A stretch of DNA of 51,299 nucleotides from a bacterium (GCA_021372575.1 JAJFUE010000027.1:1-51299), one strand, 5' to 3'; shown: positions 14,026 through 27,924, counted from the stretch's first letter. Notes: a model not told the origin generated them from the letters alone. Translations and numbers: made by a program.

Positions 14026-14592
14026 TTAGTCGCGCTGGACCCTGATGATGTCGCCCGCGCTCATCGTGCCGTTCGTGGGATCGTAGGAATTCTTGATGAT
14101 GTATTCCTCGGCTTCCGCGGCGCTCATGAGCGTGCCGTTGCGCGAATCGCCGCTCAGGTTGCCGCCCTGGCTTTTCTTCTGCTCGAGGATCGGCGCAAGG
14201 TCGAGCTGGCCGTCGGGCCCGCGGCTGATGATCACAAACGAGTGCTTGGGCGAAAGATTACTGTAATACGCGTATGGCTCGCGGAGTTGCGTGTTGCGGC
14301 TGAAGGGATCGATCGGGACCTGGTCGCCCGGGCGATACGGGTTGAAGGCGCGGTTAAGACCCTGATTGTCGGAGGGGATCGTTCCGGAGATGGACGCGTA
14401 AAAGTGGATCTGATCGGAGATGACGCGTTCGTCGTTGGCGACGCGCGCCGCGCGCGTTTTGACCATGGCTTGTTGGGAGGTGACGACAAACAAAAGCGTC
14501 AGCATGGAGAAGACAGCCAGAACGACCAGCATCTCCCCAAGGGTTAGACCCGCACGACCCGACACCAGGTATGGAGCCCTGCCTTGCCTCAT
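14026..14592 (-). CDS. Type II secretion/type IV pilus-type pseudopilin (GspG-like)
   Basis: 188 residues. The N-terminus has a prepilin peptidase site, G-R-A-G followed by L-T-L-G-E-M-L-V-V-L, with Glu at +5 of the mature protein and a hydrophobic helix up to about residue 40. The later region has D-N-Q-G-L-N-R-A-F-N and a D-P-F-S-R-N segment with Y-A-Y-Y-S, and a G-P-D-G-Q-L-D motif that recalls the GspG calcium-binding loop. It would be cleaved, methylated and assembled into a short periplasmic fibre or act as a stand-alone pseudopilin-like secreted protein. GGGGG lies four bases before the ATG. No secretion ATPase or secretin is present in the window, so this is an orphan. Confidence 0.85.
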   Translation of the reverse strand: MRQGRAPYLVSGRAGLTLGEMLVVLAVFSMLTLLFVVTSQQAMVKTRAARVANDERVISDQIHFYASISGTIPSDNQGLNRAFNPYRPGDQVPIDPFSRNTQLREPYAYYSNLSPKHSFVIISRGPDGQLDLAPILEQKKSQGGNLSGDSRNGTLMSAAEAEEYIIKNSYDPTNGTMSAGDIIRVQRD

Positions 14593-15400: not shown

Positions 15401-17095
15401 TTATTTGCTTGCATATAACTGATTGTAGTCGTTGTCGCTGAGATTGAACACGTCCTGCACTTCCCGGCGATTGTCGATGTCGTACGGCCGCTGCAGCGGG
15501 CGGTTGGCCCAGCGCGCTTCGGCGATCTGCTGGCGGGCCTGTTGCAACTGGTGGTCGCGGTAATAAGCATAGGCGGCGATCAGATGCAGCGGCGGCAGGT
15601 CCATGCGCCTCGACCGGCGCGCGTCCTCGATGGCCCTGCCAATCTTCGCGTGGCTGTCCGAGATCGTCAGTTGCCGCGTGATCTGCGCGAGCTTGTCATA
15701 GTCCTTGAAATTCTCGAACGCGGTGTTCAGGTCGCGGTTCGTCGCGAGCAGCCTGCGGATATCCTCGGCAACGGGCCTGAGGGGCGGCGGCGTCTCGAGC
15801 CGCGGCGGCCGCTGGGGCGGACGGAACAGCGGCGACATGACCGGCCTGATCGGACGCGGCCTGAACGGAGGCTCGACCACGGCGACGGTGGGCTGGGGCG
15901 ACGGCGTGGCCGCCGGTGTTGCGATTGCCGCGGCGGGAGTCTGGATGGCGGCGGCCGTTTGGACCGGTTTCCGATCGCCGCCGCGGAACGTGAGCGAGGC
16001 AACGGCCGCGAGGGCAATCACGGTCATGACGCCGGCGGCCATGGCCCAAAGCGGCCTCGCGTGTTTCGCCGCGGCCGGTTGGCCCGGCATCGTGAGGGTC
16101 GGGGCCGAGCCGGCGCCCGTGGCGGTGGCGGGGGGTTGGATGCCGATCGTGGTCGAGCCGGCGTCGGCGGTGGGCTGTTCGCCGCGCGTTTTGCCCGCCT
16201 TGAACTCCCGCTCGATCTGGTCGAGCGTCGCGCAGAATTGTTCGGCCGAAACCATGCGCTGATTGCGATCCGGATACGTCGCATGCTTGATGAGCGACCG
16301 GAACGCGGGCGGCACGAGGTCCAGGTCGATCACGCGCGGCGAGTGCCCCGTCAGCATCACGTAAAGTGTCAGGCCGAGCGAGTAGATGTCGGCGCGCGGA
16401 TCGACGTCGCGCGAGTCGCTCGACTGCTCGGGCGCCATGTAGATCGGCGTCCCGATGATCATGCCGGTCTGGGTGTATTCGTGGCTGGTCACGCTGGCCG
16501 CGATCCCGAAATCGCCGAGCTTGACGGCGCCGTCGTTCATGAAGAACACGTTGGCCGGCTTGACGTCGCGGTGGATGAACTGGTGCTGGTGCGCGTGGGC
16601 GAGGGCGTGCCCGACCTCCCGCGCGATCTGGATCGCCCGCGCCGGCTTGAGCGCGCCCTTGGACTTGATCAGCTCGGCGAGCGTTCCGCCGGGGCAGAAC
16701 TCCATGATCATCTGCAGGCCGTCGGGGGCGAGGATGATGTCGAACACCTGCGCGATGTTGTGATGGCGCAGGCGCGCGCCGATGCGCGCTTCCCTGAGGA
16801 ACCGCTCCTGGTCGGCCTTGCTTGTCATGCTCAGCTTGAGGATCTTGATCGCCACCTGCTGGTCGAGCACGTTGTCGTGGGCCAAATAGACGGTCGCAAA
16901 GCCGCCCTTGCCGAGGACGCGCAGCAGCTTGTAGCGCCCCTGCAGCGATTGCGGCAGGGCGCTGTCCGAGTCCGCCGGCGGCTGGTTCCCCGGGCCGAAC
17001 GGCGACCGCGCCGTCGGCGACTGGCGCTCGAGCCGGGTCGCCCCGGGCTCATCGCCGGCTGCTCGATCCACAGGCTTGTCGGTTCCCGATTCCAT
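15401..17095 (-). CDS. Transmembrane Ser/Thr protein kinase
   Basis: 564 residues from the ATG at 17095 (GGGGAT seven bases upstream). Residues 55-300 are a Hanks-type kinase with loop G-K-G-G-F-A-T-V (62-69), Lys84 in V-A-I-K, H-R-D-V-K-P-A-N (175-182), D-F-G (195-197) and A-P-E (221-223), so it should be active. A membrane segment lies at about 349-370. The outer part begins with a Pro/Ala/Thr linker (375-440) and ends in a helical domain (440-564) that is not PASTA and that I do not recognise. It is divergent from the C25-TPR-Wzy operon across a 309-base gap, which suggests a regulatory link to it. That link is inference. Confidence 0.93.
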   Translation of the reverse strand: MESGTDKPVDRAAGDEPGATRLERQSPTARSPFGPGNQPPADSDSALPQSLQGRYKLLRVLGKGGFATVYLAHDNVLDQQVAIKILKLSMTSKADQERFLREARIGARLRHHNIAQVFDIILAPDGLQMIMEFCPGGTLAELIKSKGALKPARAIQIAREVGHALAHAHQHQFIHRDVKPANVFFMNDGAVKLGDFGIAASVTSHEYTQTGMIIGTPIYMAPEQSSDSRDVDPRADIYSLGLTLYVMLTGHSPRVIDLDLVPPAFRSLIKHATYPDRNQRMVSAEQFCATLDQIEREFKAGKTRGEQPTADAGSTTIGIQPPATATGAGSAPTLTMPGQPAAAKHARPLWAMAAGVMTVIALAAVASLTFRGGDRKPVQTAAAIQTPAAAIATPAATPSPQPTVAVVEPPFRPRPIRPVMSPLFRPPQRPPRLETPPPLRPVAEDIRRLLATNRDLNTAFENFKDYDKLAQITRQLTISDSHAKIGRAIEDARRSRRMDLPPLHLIAAYAYYRDHQLQQARQQIAEARWANRPLQRPYDIDNRREVQDVFNLSDNDYNQLYASK

Positions 17096-17404
17096 CAAAC
17101 GATCCCCGCTCGCTCTCCGGTCCCCATTGCCGTGCGGCCGACCTTCATGTAAACTCCATACGATTCCAAGGCGCGGCCCGCCTTGACGATTTTGAGCCCG
17201 AGCGTTCAGTCCGATTATGAAACATTTCCCGAGCCGAGTGCAACGCCAAGTCCATGCAGGCCAGGCACTGATTGTTTCCTGCGCCGTCACGACCCCGGCC
17301 GCCGGCTTCATCCATCACCTTATCGACCGCTTCGCCGGTTCACTTGCGGAACAAATTGCGCCGCCGGCCGCCGAGCCCTGCGCACATTCATCCGAGATTC
17401 GGCC
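17096..17404. other. Divergent intergenic region between kinase and C25 lipoprotein genes
   Basis: 309 bases with no convincing gene. It must hold promoters for both directions. I see no strong inverted repeat or clear consensus promoter pair. Confidence 0.5.
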
Positions 17405-20089
17405 ATGATGCATCTCAGGCGTTTTCAACTCAGGACTTTTGGGGCGGCCTGCGTCGTGGCGCTGGCTGCGCTCGCGCTGTCGTGCGGCGGGCCCAAACCG
17501 GCGGCGGACTCGAACCTTCGCGCCGTGCGCATCGCGTGCTGGAAGCGCGGCGTGTATCGCATCACGGGCGCCGACCTGCAAAAACTCGGCATCGACCTGG
17601 CGACCGTCTGCACGCGCGACATCGCGCTGGTCCACATGAGCGACTCCGTGCCGGTCCTGCTCGAGAACGCCGGCCGCCGCCTCACCCCCCAGACCGAGAT
17701 GATCTTCTATTCCGTCGGCGGCAAGGCGGCCCCCATCCCGTATGTCAACATGGAGGAGCGCTACTACCCGGCCACGCAGGATTTCATGCTTTACCTCGAC
17801 CCGGGCCCGTGGGCGCCGCGCCGGTTCGAGACCGTTCCCGTCAAGACCCCCGCCGAAGCGGACCTGCGCCGCTGGCCGACGCTCACGGTCAACGGCCGCT
17901 GGCATTACGAGGATGACCCGATCTGGGACTTCTTCAAGATCATCCCCGGCGACCGCCCGATCGATTTCGTCTTCTGGAAAAAGCTCTCGTTCCCGGCGAC
18001 GACCGAGTCGCCCTCGTCCGCTGAGCTCGACTTCGCGCTGCCGAAGATCGAAACCGGCGATGAGATGGAGATGGAGTTGTTCCTCGTCGCCCGGACCGAG
18101 ATCGGCGACGTCGCCCACAACGTGACCGCGCACCGGATCGCGATCGACGTCAACGGCCTTTACCAGGAGAAGGCGCAGTGGTCCGGTGAACGCGGCCGCA
18201 TCAAGATCAAGATTCCGCCCAACGTCCTGCGCGAAAACATCAATCACCTCACGGTGCGGATTCTCGAACCGTTCATCGACAGCTCGTTCCAGAACACGCT
18301 CATGAACGTCGATGTCGCGTTCCTCGACTGGTTCGAGGTCCGCTTCCGCCAGCGCACGCAGCTCGAGGGCGACTACAACGAATTCCTCATCGGCGCCGGC
18401 GAGGACGCCTCCACGACCGCCACGCGCTCGGCTGGGCCCGTCAAGGCCGAGCCGCTGCATTTCAGCATCCGCCAGTTCACCGACGCCGGCGTCCTGACGC
18501 TCGACATCGACCGCGGCCTCAAGCTCGAGGCGCCGCCTTACGTGCAGGGGCGCGGCTCGCCGTTCATGGCCGTCAACCTCGACCTGCCGAACCGGCCGAC
18601 GCGCCTCGTGGCGCTCACGCACAAGAGCCTTCAGAAGCCGCTCGACATGCGCGCGGTCGAGATCAAGAACCTGTTCCGCAAGCCCAACGAGGCCGAGATG
18701 TTGATCCTCGCGCCGCCGCAGTTCATCGCGCCGCTCGAGAGGCTTGCGCAGTGGAAGCGCTTACGCGGCCTGTCGGTTTCGATCATCGACATCAAGGACC
18801 TGTTCAACGAGCGCACGAGCGGCTACGCCTCGCCGATGCCGATCCGCGACTACATCCGCCACGTGTATCAGTCGCAGCAGCCGTCGCCGCGCCTGCGCTA
18901 CGTGCTGCTCGTCGGCGACTCGAGTTCGATTTCGAAGGAACCCACGCAGCTGCCCGCCTACAGCTACGTCCAGGGCGGCCGCCACGCCAACGACAACTAC
19001 TTCGTGGCGCTCAAGCGCCCGCAGGATAACCCGTTCGTCGCCGTCGGCCGCATCCCCGTTCAGGACGGGAAGCAACTCGCCAACGTGGCCGACAAGATCA
19101 TTCGCTATGAGAAGGGCGAGGGGTGGGGCGCGTGGCGCGCGCGGTTCCTGCTTATCGCGGCGTCGCACCAGTGGGCGCGCGACGATTGCGACAAGATGAT
19201 CAGCGGTTACCTCAACCCGTTCGAGGTGCGCTACCTCAAGACCGACATCTCGCGCCGGGACCTCGCGTACCACGCCGAGCTGAACAGGACCCTGAGCGGC
19301 TATTTCAACGAAGGCAACCTCATCACCGCGTTTTTCGGCCACGGCGGCGGCGGGGTGTGGGAAGTCGGCCCGACCTCGATGGACCAGGGCTTCCAGCGCC
19401 ACCTGTTCGACCAGTCGGCGGTCGAGGCGCTTGCGAACGGCCCGCGCCTGCCGCTCGTGTTTGCGCTCACGTGCTACACGAACGACTTCGATAGCCCGTT
19501 CCACCCGCAGACGCTCGGCGAGACGTTCGTCGATGCGCCCGGCGGCGCGATCGCCGTCATCGGCGCCAACGACCGCTCGTATATCGAATTCAACAGTCAG
19601 TATATCGACAAGTTCATGGACCTTCTGTTCAAGCGCCGGCCGCGCACGCGCCTCGGCGACCTGTTCCTCGAGACCAAGCTCGCGCTCAATCAGCCGATCG
19701 CCAACGAGCACTACCAGCTGCTCGGCGATCCGTCGCTCGAGTTCAGCCTCCCCGGAAACCGCCTGAATATTTCCGAGGCGCGCGTCGATGGGGCCCGGCT
19801 CCATTTCAAATACCTGCTCGACCAGCCGCAGTCGGCCGGCCCGTGGCAGCTCGACGGTTATATCCTCGACAGCAAGGACCGGCTTGTTGTTCACTGGCAC
19901 GAGGCCCAGGCCCTGCGCTCGGGCGAGGTCGTTCGCGCGCTCAACCGCGAGGAGCAAACCTCGGCGACGCGCCTGGTGCTCTACTTCAACAAGCCCGGGT
20001 CGGGCGACCAGGTCGGCGCGGCGGCTCTCACGAGCGGGAGCCTCGCCGCCGTGGCGCCCGCCAAAAATACGGAGGCCGGCAGGCCGTGA
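17405..20089 (+). CDS. Peptidase family C25 (gingipain-like) lipoprotein
   Basis: 894 residues from the ATG at 17405 (a second ATG follows). A signal peptide ends at A-L-S-C with Cys27 as the likely lipidated residue. Residues 30-430 are mainly beta and resemble the N-terminal regions of PorU-type proteins. Residues 430-780 are the C25 domain, with H-G-G-G-G-V-W (His646) and L-T-C-Y-T-N-D (Cys690) as the catalytic pair, and the typical end Y-Q-L-L-G-D-P-S-L. About 110 residues follow. It should be a cysteine endopeptidase or transpeptidase at the envelope. The stop overlaps the next start by four bases (GTGA), and a Wzy/WaaL-type gene follows. This neighbourhood is reminiscent of PorU, a C25 enzyme that attaches glycolipid to exported proteins. 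Confidence 0.9.
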   Translation: MMHLRRFQLRTFGAACVVALAALALSCGGPKPAADSNLRAVRIACWKRGVYRITGADLQKLGIDLATVCTRDIALVHMSDSVPVLLENAGRRLTPQTEMIFYSVGGKAAPIPYVNMEERYYPATQDFMLYLDPGPWAPRRFETVPVKTPAEADLRRWPTLTVNGRWHYEDDPIWDFFKIIPGDRPIDFVFWKKLSFPATTESPSSAELDFALPKIETGDEMEMELFLVARTEIGDVAHNVTAHRIAIDVNGLYQEKAQWSGERGRIKIKIPPNVLRENINHLTVRILEPFIDSSFQNTLMNVDVAFLDWFEVRFRQRTQLEGDYNEFLIGAGEDASTTATRSAGPVKAEPLHFSIRQFTDAGVLTLDIDRGLKLEAPPYVQGRGSPFMAVNLDLPNRPTRLVALTHKSLQKPLDMRAVEIKNLFRKPNEAEMLILAPPQFIAPLERLAQWKRLRGLSVSIIDIKDLFNERTSGYASPMPIRDYIRHVYQSQQPSPRLRYVLLVGDSSSISKEPTQLPAYSYVQGGRHANDNYFVALKRPQDNPFVAVGRIPVQDGKQLANVADKIIRYEKGEGWGAWRARFLLIAASHQWARDDCDKMISGYLNPFEVRYLKTDISRRDLAYHAELNRTLSGYFNEGNLITAFFGHGGGGVWEVGPTSMDQGFQRHLFDQSAVEALANGPRLPLVFALTCYTNDFDSPFHPQTLGETFVDAPGGAIAVIGANDRSYIEFNSQYIDKFMDLLFKRRPRTRLGDLFLETKLALNQPIANEHYQLLGDPSLEFSLPGNRLNISEARVDGARLHFKYLLDQPQSAGPWQLDGYILDSKDRLVVHWHEAQALRSGEVVRALNREEQTSATRLVLYFNKPGSGDQVGAAALTSGSLAAVAPAKNTEAGRP

Positions 20090-20895
20090 CCGAACCCGCT
20101 GTGAAAACCCGAAACTCCCTTGCCGCGCGCGCGATCGGCGCCGTTCTCGCCGTTTGCGCGCTGGGGCTGATCTGCTGGGCGTTCGTCCTGATGAGCGTCG
20201 AATACCGGTTCCGCCGGCTGCCCGCGCTCGCCGAGGAGGAGATCGATCCGCAGATGCTCGCGCGGATGGGCGACGAGCTTGAGCGGCTCATTCGCCTCGA
20301 CCCGAACAACGGTGAAATCCGCAACGCTTACGCGAGCGTCCTCGGCCGCCGGCAGAAAAACAAGGAAGCCGTCGAACAGCTCGAAAAGGCGCTCAAGATC
20401 CTCAACGCGCAGAACAGCCTGTTCTTCCTCGCCGACATGTACGACCGGCTGGGCATGACCGCCAGGGCCGAGGCCGCGATGGGCGACGTCGTCGTGATCA
20501 ATCCGTCCAACGCCCAATACAACGAGGCCTGGATCCGCCTGCTGTTCAACCGCCTGAACGAGGCCCAGCAGGTCTTCGATAAGGGCCGGAAGAACCTGGC
20601 GGCGTACAACGACGCGCGGCGCGCCTACGCCGAAGCGGCCCGCTCATGGGCCGTCCGCGCGCCGCACGACATGAACTCCTACCTGTTCCTCGCCAACCTT
20701 CACGTGAGCCAGTACCGCGGCCCGGAGATGCAGCTTTACCTCGTGCAGGCCTACCGCCTCATGCTGCTCGGCCTGTCGCGCGCGTCGTGGATGGACCTTT
20801 CGAAAAACTACATCGTCAAGCCGCGCGGCGTGCAATCCACGATCGGCGAGATCCTCAACAACCATTTCGCCAAGCCCTACAGAGGTCTCCCCTGA
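20086..20895 (+). CDS. Membrane-anchored TPR protein
   Basis: 269 residues starting with GTG at 20086, with GGAGG at 20071-20075. One membrane segment at about residues 13-36, then a periplasmic helical domain. Two or three TPR units are readable, for example L-D-P-N-N-G-E-I-R-N-A-Y-A-S-V-L-G-R-R and L-F-F-L-A-D-M-Y-D-R-L-G-M-T. The C-terminal third (residues 180-269) is helical without clear repeats. It lies between the C25 lipoprotein (four-base overlap) and the O-antigen ligase-like gene (one base gap). TPR proteins often act as scaffolds, so it may hold those two in one envelope complex. Confidence 0.8.
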   Translation: MTEPAVKTRNSLAARAIGAVLAVCALGLICWAFVLMSVEYRFRRLPALAEEEIDPQMLARMGDELERLIRLDPNNGEIRNAYASVLGRRQKNKEAVEQLEKALKILNAQNSLFFLADMYDRLGMTARAEAAMGDVVVINPSNAQYNEAWIRLLFNRLNEAQQVFDKGRKNLAAYNDARRAYAEAARSWAVRAPHDMNSYLFLANLHVSQYRGPEMQLYLVQAYRLMLLGLSRASWMDLSKNYIVKPRGVQSTIGEILNNHFAKPYRGLP

Positions 20896-20896
20896 G

Positions 20897-22267
20897 ATGA
20901 CGCCAATCGAGCAGCCCGCCGTTGCAACCCGGTTCGACCGGATCATGAGCTGGATCGTGCCGGCGATCGCCGCGCTCACGCCGCTCGTGATCGTGTACGG
21001 CTTGCAGCGCCCCAACGTCGGCCAGTCCTACTTCTTCATCATCGCGGTGCGGGCCGCGACGGCCGCGCAGGGGATCGCGTGGACGCTCGGCTGGTCGGCA
21101 TTCCCACGCCGCCTGCGCCTGCCGTTCTGGCTCATCGCGCTCAACGCCGCCACCGTGCTGGCCTCGCTGCCCGTCTCGAACAACGTCGTCTTTTCGATCA
21201 AGCAGCTTCTGCTGCCGATTGCCGGCGTGCTGTTTTTCATGCTCGTCACAGTTTCGCCGCAGCGTCGCGCGATCCTCACGCGCGTCACGCTCGCGATGAT
21301 CGCCATCGGCGCCGTGCTCGCCCTCGTCGGCATCGGCCAGCATTTCGGGATCAAGTTCCTGGCCTACAGCGAGCAGGTCCGCAAGAACGTCGTCACGGCC
21401 ACGATCGGCCATCCCAACCACCTGAGCTCGGTGCTTGGCCCGCTCGTCTTCTTTATCGTGAGCCTCTATTACGCAAGCCGCCGGCGTGGCCTGGCTGTCC
21501 CGGCGCTTGCGCTCGTGATCCTGTGCCTGTGCTGCATCATTCTTGCGCGCACGCGCTCGATCTGGCTCGGCCTGATCCTCGGCATGACCGCGATGTTCAT
21601 CGGCGGCTTCTTCTACATGCTGCGCAACCGGGCCGCCGCCCCGCTCGTCGGCAAGGCCGGCATCGGCGCGCTCGTCGCGATCTGCGGCGTGGCCGTGTTC
21701 GCGATGCTGATGCCTGTGCTGGGGCATCCGATCGACCTGCAGGAGCGCCTCGGCTCGAAAAAGGAAATCAGCAGCCGGTTCTTCTACTGGAACGCGGCGA
21801 TCGACATGGGCCGCGAGCGCCCGATCCTCGGCCGCGGCTACGCGATGTTCGACCCGCAGTTCTGGACCTACACCCTCAATCACCAGAAGACGGCGATGGG
21901 CAAGTATTACAACGACGTCCTGCCGGCGATCTCCGGAACGATCCCCGGCCACCCGCACAACGAATATCTGGAAGTGTTCTGCGAGCAGGGCCTGTTCGGC
22001 CTCGTTGCGCTGCTGGCGCTGATGGGATTCTTCCTGTATTACGGCTGGCTGTGCGTGATGCGCGAGCCCGACCCCGACCGCGCCATGCAACAACTCGCGA
22101 TCTGGTGCGCGCTGGTCCTGATCCTTACCGACGCCATGCTGGCCTTCCCGTGGCGCCTCCCCGTGAGCCTCGTCATGCTCACGCTCACGCTCGCGTGGCT
22201 CTATGAGTTTATCTATTCCGAGCCCGATCCAGCGTGCTCGGAATCGTGCTCGTGCTCGTGCTCGTAA
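20897..22267 (+). CDS. O-antigen ligase/polymerase family protein (Wzy_C/WaaL type)
   Basis: 456 residues with about ten to twelve membrane helices. The large periplasmic loop and its end, G-H-P-H-N-E-Y-L-E-V-F-C-E-Q-G-L-F-G-L, carry the H-P-H-N-x-Y-L-E and E-x-G-L-x-G-L signatures of the Wzy_C family, whose members link O-antigen or other glycans to lipid A or protein. The substrate cannot be read. The last residues S-E-S-C-S-C-S-C-S and the TAA stop are encoded by the (GTGCTC)n(GTAATC)n repeat element, so the natural C-terminus has been replaced or extended by an intergenic repeat. It is third in the C25-TPR-Wzy operon. Confidence 0.9.
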   Translation: MTPIEQPAVATRFDRIMSWIVPAIAALTPLVIVYGLQRPNVGQSYFFIIAVRAATAAQGIAWTLGWSAFPRRLRLPFWLIALNAATVLASLPVSNNVVFSIKQLLLPIAGVLFFMLVTVSPQRRAILTRVTLAMIAIGAVLALVGIGQHFGIKFLAYSEQVRKNVVTATIGHPNHLSSVLGPLVFFIVSLYYASRRRGLAVPALALVILCLCCIILARTRSIWLGLILGMTAMFIGGFFYMLRNRAAAPLVGKAGIGALVAICGVAVFAMLMPVLGHPIDLQERLGSKKEISSRFFYWNAAIDMGRERPILGRGYAMFDPQFWTYTLNHQKTAMGKYYNDVLPAISGTIPGHPHNEYLEVFCEQGLFGLVALLALMGFFLYYGWLCVMREPDPDRAMQQLAIWCALVLILTDAMLAFPWRLPVSLVMLTLTLAWLYEFIYSEPDPACSESCSCSCS

Positions 22268-23579: not shown

Positions 23580-26500
23580 TCACCATCCTGTGTTGTTGTA
23601 TTCGGGGAATCCGTTGTCCGGGAAGATGACCCGGCCGGTCTCGGGGTCGATCGGCGGCTGCGGCAGGATCTTCTCGAGGATGTCGAGCACGGTGCCGACC
23701 ACGCCGATGGCCTCCTTGCCGAACTCATAGCCGGCCGTCGGCAGGTCGCCGTTGTAAAGCGCCTTGCCGCCCTTGTAAATCCCGCTGCCGGGCGCGCCGG
23801 GGATTTCGGAGTAGGTCTCGACGCCGCCGATCGTCGTGTCCTTGATGAACTGGGCCGTGTCCTCGCCGAACGAGGCGTCGCTCATGTTTGTCGGCATGGT
23901 GCAGCTGTTGAGGTCGGCCGTTCCGCTCATGATGTCGAGCCCGAACGGATCGATTTCATTGACCGGATTGTTGCGCGCGTAGCGGTAAAGGTTCGTGCCG
24001 CCCGAGATGCCGGCCGGGTCGCGCTGAATGAACCGGCCCGTGCGCGCGTCATAGTGGCGGCGCCGCATGAGATACAATCCGTCGCCGTCATCGACCACGC
24101 CGACCGCGCCGCAGAACGTGAACGGATTGTAAATCGTCCCGGTCTGATTGCAGACAAGGCCTTCGGGGTTATAGGCATATGCCGCGGCCACGTTGCCGGC
24201 GCCGTCGGTCAGGGCCAGCACGTCGCCCTTCGGCGAGCAGTGATAGTAATACGTCTGCCCCGCGGCCGTGCGCATCGCGAACAGCCGCCAGCCTGCGTAG
24301 ATATACATCACGGTGACGTTGTTTTTCTTGTCTGTCTCGAACAGCAGGCGCCCTTCGGAGTCGTGGTAATAGTTGCGGACGTGATTCCCCGTCGCCGAAC
24401 GCACGCGCCGGCCGAGCGCGTCGTATGTGAACGCCGTCTCGACGCCGTTGCGCGTGACGCGCGTCAGCCTGTTTTCCGGGTCGTACTGGCCGCTCCATGA
24501 GCGCGCCCCCGTCACCGACGCCAGGTTGCCGTCGAGGTCGTATTGATACGCGGCGCCACCGCATTGCACGATCTGATTCAGCTTGTTGTAGGTCGCCGTC
24601 CGCGCCTGCGTGGCGATGATCGGCGACAGCGGCAGCGTCGAGTTCTCCTGCGTGATGTTGCCGTTCGCGTTATAGGCGTACGCGGATTCGATAAACGGCG
24701 CGGCAGCGCCTTTGCGCGCGCTGAACGCCGTCACGCGATTGGCCGCGTCGAACGTCGATGCGGACGCAACAGCATTGGGTCTCGCCACCGCCGTGACGTT
24801 GCCGGCCGGGTCGAGCGTGATCGTCGAGGTCGAGCCGTTGATTGCGATCTTCGTCAGGCGGTTGCGCGAATCATATCCGTAATCGACAACCAGTAGGCCG
24901 CCGGGATAGACGATGCGCGTCGGATTCCCCTGCGCGTCGCGGGTGTAATTGACCGCGAGGCCGGTGCCGTAACCCTCGCGAACGATCCGCTGGCACGAAT
25001 CGTACAGGAACCACATCGATTCCTCGGGCGAACGGCCCGTCGCCGACGTCAGCCGCCCGTCGGCGTCGTGCTCGAACTGCGCGACCAGCGTCCCGTCATG
25101 CAGCTTGCGGGCGATCCTGCCGTCGGCGGTGTATTGGTACGAGACCGTCTGGCCGCGCGAATTCTTGAACGAGGCGACCCGGCCGAGCGTGTCGCGCGTG
25201 ATCGTCATGCGGTTGCCGAGTTCGTCCTGCATCGCGATCAGGCGATTGGCCGCGTCGTAGCCGAAGCGGTGCCGGTTGCCGCGCTCATCCGTCAGCGTCA
25301 GCAGGTTCCACGAATTGTCGAACACGCGCGAGATGGAATTCCCCAAACGATCAACTGCCCTGACCTGCCGGTTGATCGCGTCGTATTCGAACCTCGTCAC
25401 GCGCCCGAGCGGGTCGGTGCGCGTCGTCAGGTTGTCGTTGGCGTCGTAGGCAATCTTGTGCCTTTCGTTCGCGCCGTTGCGGAACGCGATCACGTCCATC
25501 ACCATGTTGCGCGTCACCGAGGTCATGTGGTCGTTCTCGTCGATCGTGGCGATGCGCGTGCATGGGATGTAAATGTGGCCCAGGAACGAATGGTCGGGGT
25601 GGGTGAGCTTGGTGATCCGCCCGTTGGCGTCGTATTCCATCCGGGTCTTGTTGCCCCGGCGGTCGGTCACCGCGATGCAGCGGATTCCCTGCGCGTCGTA
25701 TTCCATGACGTCGGCGTTCCCGAGCGGATCGATCGTCTTCTTCAGGTTCCCGAACGCGTCGTATTCGAAGCGCGTCGTGTTGCCCATCGCCGTTTGGGTC
25801 GAGGTCAGCTGCCCGAGCGCGTTGTAGGCCATCCGTGTTTTGCCGCCGCCGGGGCTCGTGATGGTGAGTACGTTCCCGGCCGCGTCGTGCGTGTATGAGG
25901 TCGTCTGGCCGAGCGCGTCGCGCATCGAGGTCTTGTTGCCCTTGGCATCGTAGGTCCAGGCCGTGCGGGCACCCGTCGGGTCGGTGCGCGAAATCAGGTT
26001 CCCGGCCGCGTCGTACTGGGACGTCGTGATCCCGCCCCGCGGCCCGATCGATTTGGTCAGCCGCCCGTTCGTGTATTCCCGCGCCGTGACATGCCCGAGG
26101 TGATTTTGAATGCGCACGGTCTGGCCGGCGGCGTTGAACGTGTGCGTCGTCAGCCGATCGAGCGGATCGGTGACGAGCGTGCATGTCGTCGTTGGCTTGG
26201 TGTAGCGCGTCGTGTGGCCGGCCGCGTTCGTGATGCTTGCGATCTCGGAGCGGCCGTTGGCGCTGCGATACTCGAACTGGGTGATCTTGCTGTTGACCTT
26301 GATTCGGCTGATCAGCCCGCCGCCCGTTCCATACGTGTATTCGATGCGCGTGCCGAGCGGATCAACCGATGCGGTCAGGTTGCTGTTCGGGTCATATTCG
26401 AACGTCGCCTGCCTGCCGCCCGGCAGCGCGATCTTCGTACAAAGCCAGTTGCCGTCATACGTGAACGAGGTCTTGCGTCCGGCCGCGTCGGTCAGGTCCT

Positions 26501-27788
26501 TGATCGCCCAGAACGCCGGCGCCGTGGTCGCCGTGTCGTTCATGTAGGTGAACGCGATGGACTTGCCGAAGCGGTCCGTGATCCGGTCGAGGCGCCCCAG
26601 CTTGGGCGCGTAGTCGGCGGACTTGACCGCGAAGCGATACGTCATGTGGTCCCGGTCGCGCGTGAGCAGCCAATAATCCTTCGCGCTGCTCAGGACCAGC
26701 TTGTCGCGGTTGGCCGGATTGACGGGACGGAAAACAAATCCCGTTCCGGCCACGTCGTCGTAGCCGTTATAGGCGAGCTTCTCGCCCGTCCCGGTGTAGA
26801 ACGCGACGGCGTTGGGGATCGCGTCGGCGATCGTCGGCGCGCCGGTCAGCACCGCGGTCGAGGTGTAACGCCATTCGTGTTCGAAGCGCCACAATACGCC
26901 GAACATGCCGACCGGCCGGTCCTGCCCGCCCACCTGCGAGTTGTAGCTGCGCGTGATCGACACCTTCGGCCCGAGCCCCTCGTATGAAAAATCCGTGTCG
27001 CGCACGAACAGGTTGAGCGTGTCGAGATTGACGTTGTAGATCGGAAGGCCGTTCACCGAGCAGCGGCCCGGCCCGCCGCCGTCGTCGCCCGGTTCGTCAT
27101 TATCGCCGTCCTCGGGCGCGTCTTCCGGTTCTTCGTCGCGGCCTTCGCCGTCGTCGTACGACGTGTCCTTGTGGTCGTCAGGGCTGCCCGCCTGCTCGCT
27201 GGGGGACTCCGAGTAAGGCCGTGTCCAGAATTCGAAATCGACATAAATCTGGATCTGCGGCACGCCCATCGCCGTGTAGCCGACATATCGCAGTTTGAAC
27301 GGCGTGAAGGCGCGCGTGTAATATCCGGCGGCCGCGACCGTCAGGCCCAGTCCGCCGATGTCGGGATACCAGCGTGTCGCCTGGCTCACGGAGACGTCCT
27401 GGAAATCGTCGGACCGGTAGGCATACACCGACATCTGGTTGGCGCCGTACCAACCGCTGCCGGCGCTGCCGGTCGCGGGCTGCGGGCGCGCGGCGAGGCA
27501 CCATCGCGAATGCCGGTCGCTGCACGTTCCCAGGTAGCTGAAGAAATACGACGGCACGGTGTGGCCGGGGAACGACCACGAGTCCTGGTAAAAGTTGGTC
27601 CCCGTCAGGATCACGCTGCCGACGTTTTGCATCGACCAGGCGATCTTGTCGCCGGCGGGCGTTTGTGAAATGACGCTGACGTCGGCGCGCGCGGCGGGAG
27701 CAATCAGGACGAGGGCCAGTGCAAACCACGCCCTGCCCGTCCTCACCACCGCCTCGAGGCCCGAGGAAAAACCATGAAATTTCATCAT
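23580..27788 (-). CDS. Secreted RHS/YD-repeat protein with variable C-terminal tip
   Basis: About 1402 residues from the ATG at 27788 (another ATG follows). A signal peptide (to A-A-R-A) leads into a 220-residue domain of unknown type, an Asp/Glu-rich segment (D-E-E-P-E-D-A-P-E-D-G-D) that may bind calcium, then an RHS entry domain (N-L-F-V-R-D-T-D-F-S-Y-E-G-L-G-P). Dozens of YD repeats follow (such as Y-D-A-A-G-N-L-I-S-R). The core ends with N-L-Y-R-Y-A-R-N-N-P-V-N-E-I-D-P-F-G-L-D near residue 1285. The last 117 residues are a separate tip. In this superfamily the shell encloses a tip that is often a toxin. I do not recognise the tip's activity. No classic immunity gene is obvious. Confidence 0.9.
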   Translation of the reverse strand: MMKFHGFSSGLEAVVRTGRAWFALALVLIAPAARADVSVISQTPAGDKIAWSMQNVGSVILTGTNFYQDSWSFPGHTVPSYFFSYLGTCSDRHSRWCLAARPQPATGSAGSGWYGANQMSVYAYRSDDFQDVSVSQATRWYPDIGGLGLTVAAAGYYTRAFTPFKLRYVGYTAMGVPQIQIYVDFEFWTRPYSESPSEQAGSPDDHKDTSYDDGEGRDEEPEDAPEDGDNDEPGDDGGGPGRCSVNGLPIYNVNLDTLNLFVRDTDFSYEGLGPKVSITRSYNSQVGGQDRPVGMFGVLWRFEHEWRYTSTAVLTGAPTIADAIPNAVAFYTGTGEKLAYNGYDDVAGTGFVFRPVNPANRDKLVLSSAKDYWLLTRDRDHMTYRFAVKSADYAPKLGRLDRITDRFGKSIAFTYMNDTATTAPAFWAIKDLTDAAGRKTSFTYDGNWLCTKIALPGGRQATFEYDPNSNLTASVDPLGTRIEYTYGTGGGLISRIKVNSKITQFEYRSANGRSEIASITNAAGHTTRYTKPTTTCTLVTDPLDRLTTHTFNAAGQTVRIQNHLGHVTAREYTNGRLTKSIGPRGGITTSQYDAAGNLISRTDPTGARTAWTYDAKGNKTSMRDALGQTTSYTHDAAGNVLTITSPGGGKTRMAYNALGQLTSTQTAMGNTTRFEYDAFGNLKKTIDPLGNADVMEYDAQGIRCIAVTDRRGNKTRMEYDANGRITKLTHPDHSFLGHIYIPCTRIATIDENDHMTSVTRNMVMDVIAFRNGANERHKIAYDANDNLTTRTDPLGRVTRFEYDAINRQVRAVDRLGNSISRVFDNSWNLLTLTDERGNRHRFGYDAANRLIAMQDELGNRMTITRDTLGRVASFKNSRGQTVSYQYTADGRIARKLHDGTLVAQFEHDADGRLTSATGRSPEESMWFLYDSCQRIVREGYGTGLAVNYTRDAQGNPTRIVYPGGLLVVDYGYDSRNRLTKIAINGSTSTITLDPAGNVTAVARPNAVASASTFDAANRVTAFSARKGAAAPFIESAYAYNANGNITQENSTLPLSPIIATQARTATYNKLNQIVQCGGAAYQYDLDGNLASVTGARSWSGQYDPENRLTRVTRNGVETAFTYDALGRRVRSATGNHVRNYYHDSEGRLLFETDKKNNVTVMYIYAGWRLFAMRTAAGQTYYYHCSPKGDVLALTDGAGNVAAAYAYNPEGLVCNQTGTIYNPFTFCGAVGVVDDGDGLYLMRRRHYDARTGRFIQRDPAGISGGTNLYRYARNNPVNEIDPFGLDIMSGTADLNSCTMPTNMSDASFGEDTAQFIKDTTIGGVETYSEIPGAPGSGIYKGGKALYNGDLPTAGYEFGKEAIGVVGTVLDILEKILPQPPIDPETGRVIFPDNGFPEYNNTGW

Positions 27789-27924
27789 GAACCCGGCCGA
27801 ATGGAATTTGGTCGCCAATCGGGGACACAAATTGGCATGACATCGAATCCGATGCTCGGCAAACCCGCGCGATTGGTCAAGCGGATAGTGAACGAACGGC
27901 TGATGACTCGAAAAATGGCCGCGT

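Follow-up and report, generated by a model that had tools for sequence, protein, structure and literature searches.

We describe here a three-gene operon of a Sumerlaeota (BRC1) bacterium in which a PorU-like C25 cysteine peptidase is linked to a WaaL-like membrane protein outside type IX secretion, a linkage that is well supported. The mechanism that best accounts for it, to which we give a probability of roughly 0.4, is an envelope system resembling the last attachment steps of type IX secretion, which would join proteins to glycan without the type IX translocon.

Gene layout

The window, that is, the whole stretch of DNA analysed (51,299 nucleotides), belongs to genome GCA_021372575.1 (G000), and the features of interest are the following:

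15401-17098, minus strand: Ser/Thr protein kinase, transcribed divergently from the operon (its counterpart in relative G001 has the same location and 64% identity)
17405-20089, plus strand: clade S C25 protein of 894 aa, a PorU-like cysteine peptidase/transpeptidase and putative lipoprotein (PF01364, 4.1e-73)
17483-17485, plus strand: Cys27, predicted lipidation site (lipobox ALALS|C, from the motif alone)
19340-19342, plus strand: catalytic His646 (GHGGG motif)
19472-19474, plus strand: catalytic Cys690 (LTCYT motif)
19574-19576, plus strand: Arg724, a basic residue 34 positions beyond the catalytic Cys, close to PorU Arg722 but one residue off PorU's position
19742-20086, plus strand: C-terminal domain of the C25 protein, 3' of the catalytic domain (no homologues beyond the C25 proteins of family f1)
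20086-20895, plus strand: TPR protein with one N-terminal TM segment, 269 aa, GTG start (TPR_8, E=5.7e-6)
20897-22267, plus strand: Wzy_C/O-antigen-ligase-like membrane protein, 456 aa (PF04932, 6.4e-22)
21956-21958, plus strand: His354 of Wzy_C (HPHNEYLEVFCEQGLFG), which aligns with the HN conserved in WaaL and is invariant in alignment A6

The initial annotation had proposed that C25, TPR and Wzy_C genes are joined by a four-base overlap and a one-base gap, and the ORFs found at these coordinates agree with it, the C25 and TPR genes sharing the bases GTGA and the TPR and Wzy_C genes being separated by a single base. The operon region showed no sigma-70-like promoter, although this is a weak indicator for the phylum. 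The opposite strand carries, just 3' of the operon, the gene of a 1416-aa RHS/YD-repeat protein (positions 23580-27830, minus strand).

C25 proteins of Sumerlaeota and relation to PorU

A tree of 75 C25 catalytic domains resolved three large Sumerlaeota groups, S, M and L. Clade S proteins, including the one in the window, have mostly 750-900 aa; clade M proteins, to which two further C25 proteins of the same genome belong (1484 and about 1430 aa), have mostly 1400-1680 aa; and clade L proteins have about 1800 aa and carry CARDB domains. The His646 and Cys690 pointed out in the initial annotation were correctly numbered and are invariant in all 75 aligned domains. Its description of the protein as a lipoprotein has the lipobox at Cys27 (ALALS|CGG) as its sole basis, and this feature is given here as putative. 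The C25 protein of the G001 operon (candidate division BRC1 bacterium ADurb.BinA292) has a lipobox too (LLAS|C), and the second G001 copy has an ordinary signal peptide.

Profile comparisons support a PorU-like character of the window protein, with a homology that reaches past the catalytic domain. A clade S profile built from 12 proteins matched the solved PorU structure (6za2) with E=3.9e-51 over PorU residues 250-796 and also, weakly, over residues 38-146, upstream of the catalytic domain, whereas its match to gingipains (4e-30) was limited to the catalytic domain. RgpB and Kgp share with the window protein the catalytic fold and dyad, but they are weaker matches and lack the PorU arginine. 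PorU orthologues have a conserved Arg722, 32 residues past the catalytic Cys, that is missing in gingipains (PMC4560394). At the loop position of the window Arg724, 16 of the 21 clade S members have R or K, versus only one of 50 members of clades L and M (Fisher 1e-10, a value that ignores relatedness). In three type IX PorU-like outgroup proteins the Arg sits one residue earlier in the loop than in clade S, and for this reason the equivalence of Arg724 and Arg722 is likely rather than certain.

The window protein is like PorU in its sequence match over the catalytic and preceding domains, its Cys/His dyad, its basic residue near Arg722 (offset by one) and its probable character of Sec-exported envelope protein. 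However, it differs from PorU in being a putative lipoprotein devoid of the type IX C-terminal domain, in sharing an operon with TPR and Wzy_C genes, and in its score against the NCBIfam PorU equivalog (4.5e-60, 203 bits), which is below the cut-off of 420.

We considered two identities for the C-terminal 115 aa of the C25 protein and rejected both: a shared sorting domain, as no other protein carries it, and the small partner protein found in family f5, as the profiles have no similarity. This domain is strand-rich in a predicted model of low confidence; the AlphaFold model of the whole protein, made with 3 sequences, had a mean pLDDT of 44 and was therefore unfit for a fold search. The f5 partner itself is a small (190-230 aa) signal-peptide protein or lipoprotein with no Pfam family, encoded directly 3' of clade S C25 genes (L064:9902-10588, L065, L066, L068, L071 and L073) and fused to C25 in G033 (L072:6991-9750).

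The Wzy_C and TPR proteins

The O-antigen-ligase-like protein recognized in the initial annotation indeed has a Wzy_C domain with conserved Arg and His, and its nearest solved relative is WaaL (7tpg/7tpj, 5.4e-5). R220, H354 and N355 are invariant in the alignment, and about 11 hydrophobic segments were found in this protein, while the TPR protein has its TM segment at residues 17-35. The window protein resembles the WaaL/Wzy_C superfamily in PF04932, in the conserved Arg and HN motif and in its polytopic membrane nature, but the similarity is remote, and the protein differs in sharing an operon with C25 and TPR genes and in belonging to a genome with 13 Wzy_C genes. These data support a WaaL-like assignment, at a level at which the sequence does not separate polymerase, ligase and O-oligosaccharyltransferase.

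Clade L C25 genes are followed by the gene of a 350-aa TM+TPR protein, often with a 4-base overlap, in 18 loci (including L104, L115, L117 and L121), and this is apparently an undescribed gene pair that is conserved in most Sumerlaeota. An orthology between this protein and the window TPR protein was rejected, as their likeness is at the TPR level only. In families f8 and f13 the clade L C25/TPR pair is followed by varying combinations of genes for a GT-C-glycosyltransferase-like membrane protein (no Pfam match), a GDP-mannose-dehydratase-like enzyme and a Wzy_C-TPR protein.

Conservation of the operon and linkage of C25 to Wzy_C

In G001, which belongs to a second genus, the divergent kinase and the C25, TPR and Wzy_C genes keep the same order, with 64, 39, 40 and 45% identity, respectively, and the genes downstream of the unit differ from those of the window. 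The conservation of the three genes as a unit, which mattered to the initial proposal, holds in part: the unit is complete in two of the three family members, but the third has TPR and Wzy_C genes without a neighbouring C25 gene, and other families have C25-Wzy_C without a TPR protein of the window's type. G002 has a TPR-Wzy_C pair with no adjoining C25 gene, on a short contig; in G003, Wzy_C is followed by the gene of a small TPR-like protein and C25 is on a separate contig; and in G008 and G014, C25 directly precedes Wzy_C, with a gene for a PMT/TMTC-like TPR glycosyltransferase after the pair in G014.

Because Wzy_C genes are abundant (3-16 per phylum member), the linkage has to be weighed against that abundance. 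In 40 genomes, we found six cases (G000, G001, G008 twice, G014 and G016) of a Wzy_C gene that has the same orientation as a C25 gene and starts at most 1.5 kb 3' of it, versus 0.20 expected (P about 8e-8, or about 6e-5 for the four cases left when relatives are collapsed), in an estimate that uses approximate C25 counts and a post hoc test. The C25-TPR-Wzy_C arrangement exceeds chance, its order being kept in G001 at ~40% identity and the adjacency of C25 and Wzy_C in the phylum being ~30 times the expectation. The Wzy_C proteins adjoining clade M and clade L C25 form well-supported groups of their own, each distinct from the clade S partners, and more than one origin of the pairing is therefore probable. 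About 7 of the 20 genomes with clade S C25 have no close Wzy_C of the operon's type, and the co-occurrence of the two is weak (Fisher P=0.025, with no phylogenetic correction).

Glycan genes around C25

Wzy_C (6 of 95 proteins) and GT2 (5 of 95) occur within three genes of clade S C25, and neither is among the 25 most frequent families around clade M C25. Clade S C25 of family f8 has Wzx-like (Polysacc_synt_3) proteins and glycosyltransferases as neighbours. Three f5 genomes have a set of Gfo/Idh, hexapeptide acetyltransferase and DegT aminotransferase genes after clade S C25, the acetyltransferase having been called in two of them and not in G006. A polysaccharide region of G038 with clade S C25 also holds a gene (L061:16144-16998) judged by its sequence to encode a NeuB-like sialic-acid synthase. 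A Wbp pathway with the enzyme types of the f5 set is required for the linking sugar of type IX secretion (PMC7468200). Such Gfo/Idh genes are found in 30 of the 40 genomes, mostly away from C25, so the f5 set is only suggestive. Wbp-like enzymes constitute a common O-antigen pathway, and in G000 such a set does not lie near C25.

Type IX components and other sorting routes

In accordance with the suggestion that the operon could work without the rest of the type IX apparatus, SprA (PF14349) and PorV (PF19572) were found in none of the 40 phylum genomes, while the same search gave strong matches in 5 and 6 outgroup genomes, respectively. The type IX cargo tail PF18962 was absent from G000 and matched once in the 40 phylum genomes, in the distant G037. 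Thus, no complete type IX system with a PorU of its own was found elsewhere, and the lack of SprA, PorV and cargo tails is a further difference between the window genome and those with PorU.

A search for a shared C-terminal sorting domain gave none that fitted in 708 kb (15%) of G000, while the same type of search, used as a positive control with a simpler gene caller, recovered 20 cargo tails in 400 kb of a type IX genome. Within the 708 kb, a DPTNG tail present in 10 proteins formed the only large C-terminal cluster; it was judged to be a GspG-like pseudopilin feature and rejected as a sorting tail. The window itself encodes a pseudopilin-like protein ending in YDPTNGTMSAGDI (positions 14026-14592, minus strand), a C-terminal motif shared by 10 of the G000 proteins sampled, some of them prepilins, and found in many genomes of Sumerlaeota, and the genes of such proteins sometimes adjoin long C25 genes (L113, L138 and L107). 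If there is cargo, it may consist of few proteins, be encoded in the other 85% of the genome or carry a signal too short or diverse for the search.

G000 also has two exosortases (C156:1575-2336 and C42:69941-70672), off the operon, and four PEP-CTERM proteins over the cut-off, one of the exosortases adjoining a 960-aa PEP-CTERM protein; exosortases are present in only 4 of the 40 phylum genomes. This is a sorting route separate from the operon. It resembles the operon in that a cysteine transpeptidase is tied to polysaccharide genes and a TPR protein (PrsT), but the enzyme family is unrelated to C25 and the G000 exosortases are on other contigs.

Discussion

In the mechanism that we favour, the C25 protein would be a lipoprotein that is exported by Sec and stays anchored to the membrane. 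In the inner membrane, the WaaL-like Wzy_C protein would transfer a lipid-linked glycan to an acceptor, and the TPR protein, tethered there with its repeats facing the periplasm, might hold the enzymes or the substrate together. C25, by means of Cys690 and His646, would cut periplasmic or surface proteins and link the end so created to an amino group on the glycan, as does PorU, which in the bacteria of gum disease attaches proteins to sugars of the cell surface. We infer the topology, the transpeptidation, the cargo and the identity of the glycan in this scheme. It is favoured by the better match to PorU than to gingipains, the basic residue of clade S, the Wzy_C protein being closest to WaaL with its conserved Arg and His, the six adjacencies versus 0.20 across clades, the clade L TM+TPR loci, the f5 sugar genes and the absence of SprA and PorV in the 40 genomes. 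However, it is weakened by the failure to find a sorting domain in the 708 kb, the restriction of the C-terminal domain to C25, the frequent separation of C25 and Wzy_C, the commonness of the Wbp-like set and the offset of the Arg by one residue. Of the related glycan-attaching machine proposed in the initial annotation, the PorU-like/WaaL-like pairing without type IX components stands, the repeated C-terminal cargo domain did not appear in the 708 kb, and the attachment of protein to glycan is putative.

It is also possible, and this reading ranks second, close to the favoured one, that this is a surface-polysaccharide operon in which the TPR and Wzy_C proteins polymerise or ligate polysaccharide and C25, as a hydrolase, takes part in the maturation or turnover of envelope proteins without joining protein to glycan. 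The Wzy_C-TPR pairs or fusions without C25 in G002, G003 and G007, the presence, in several families, of Wzx, glycosyltransferase and Wzy genes around clade S C25, and the failure to find a cargo-tail family in the 708 kb would fit such a role, but the homology of C25 to the PorU transpeptidase over gingipains and the PorU-type basic residue retained in clade S argue against it.

The Wzy_C family takes in both WaaL and PglL enzymes, and the pair in G014 is followed by the PMT/TMTC-like glycosyltransferase, which would be compatible with a PglL-type O-oligosaccharyltransferase having the adjoining C25 lipoprotein as its main substrate, so that the operon would yield a glycosylated secreted protease. 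We consider this improbable, given that the nearest solved match is WaaL, that Pfam and NCBIfam gave no PglL-specific match and that the Wzy_C clade varies with the C25 clade of the pair. Still less probable is an adjacency without functional link, in which one family would have come by the shared transcript through historical accident. Such a reading would fit the disruption of the unit in most families, the large number of Wzy_C genes and the about 5 chance pairs expected within 10 kb on either strand in the 40 genomes, but direct same-strand adjacency is well above its expectation even with relatives collapsed, and the unit is kept between genera whose downstream genes differ.

More tentatively, PorU-type transpeptidases, WaaL-type ligases and TPR scaffolds might have been combined more than once, and from various C25 and Wzy_C clades, into a translocon-free anchoring of proteins to glycan in Sumerlaeota, a generalization that we regard as possible but doubtful. 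To the best of our knowledge, PorU-type attachment is known only as the final step of type IX secretion, and the reviews found in the literature search describe type IX secretion as confined to Bacteroidetes. We found no paper on C25 peptidases of Sumerlaeota/BRC1 in the literature searched. A PorU-like enzyme genetically tied to a WaaL-like ligase without SprA and PorV would show that glycan attachment is possible without the type IX translocon, and the operon offers a minimal three-gene set for testing it. If such a translocon-free anchoring exists, PorU-like attachment would be separable from type IX secretion and might predate it.
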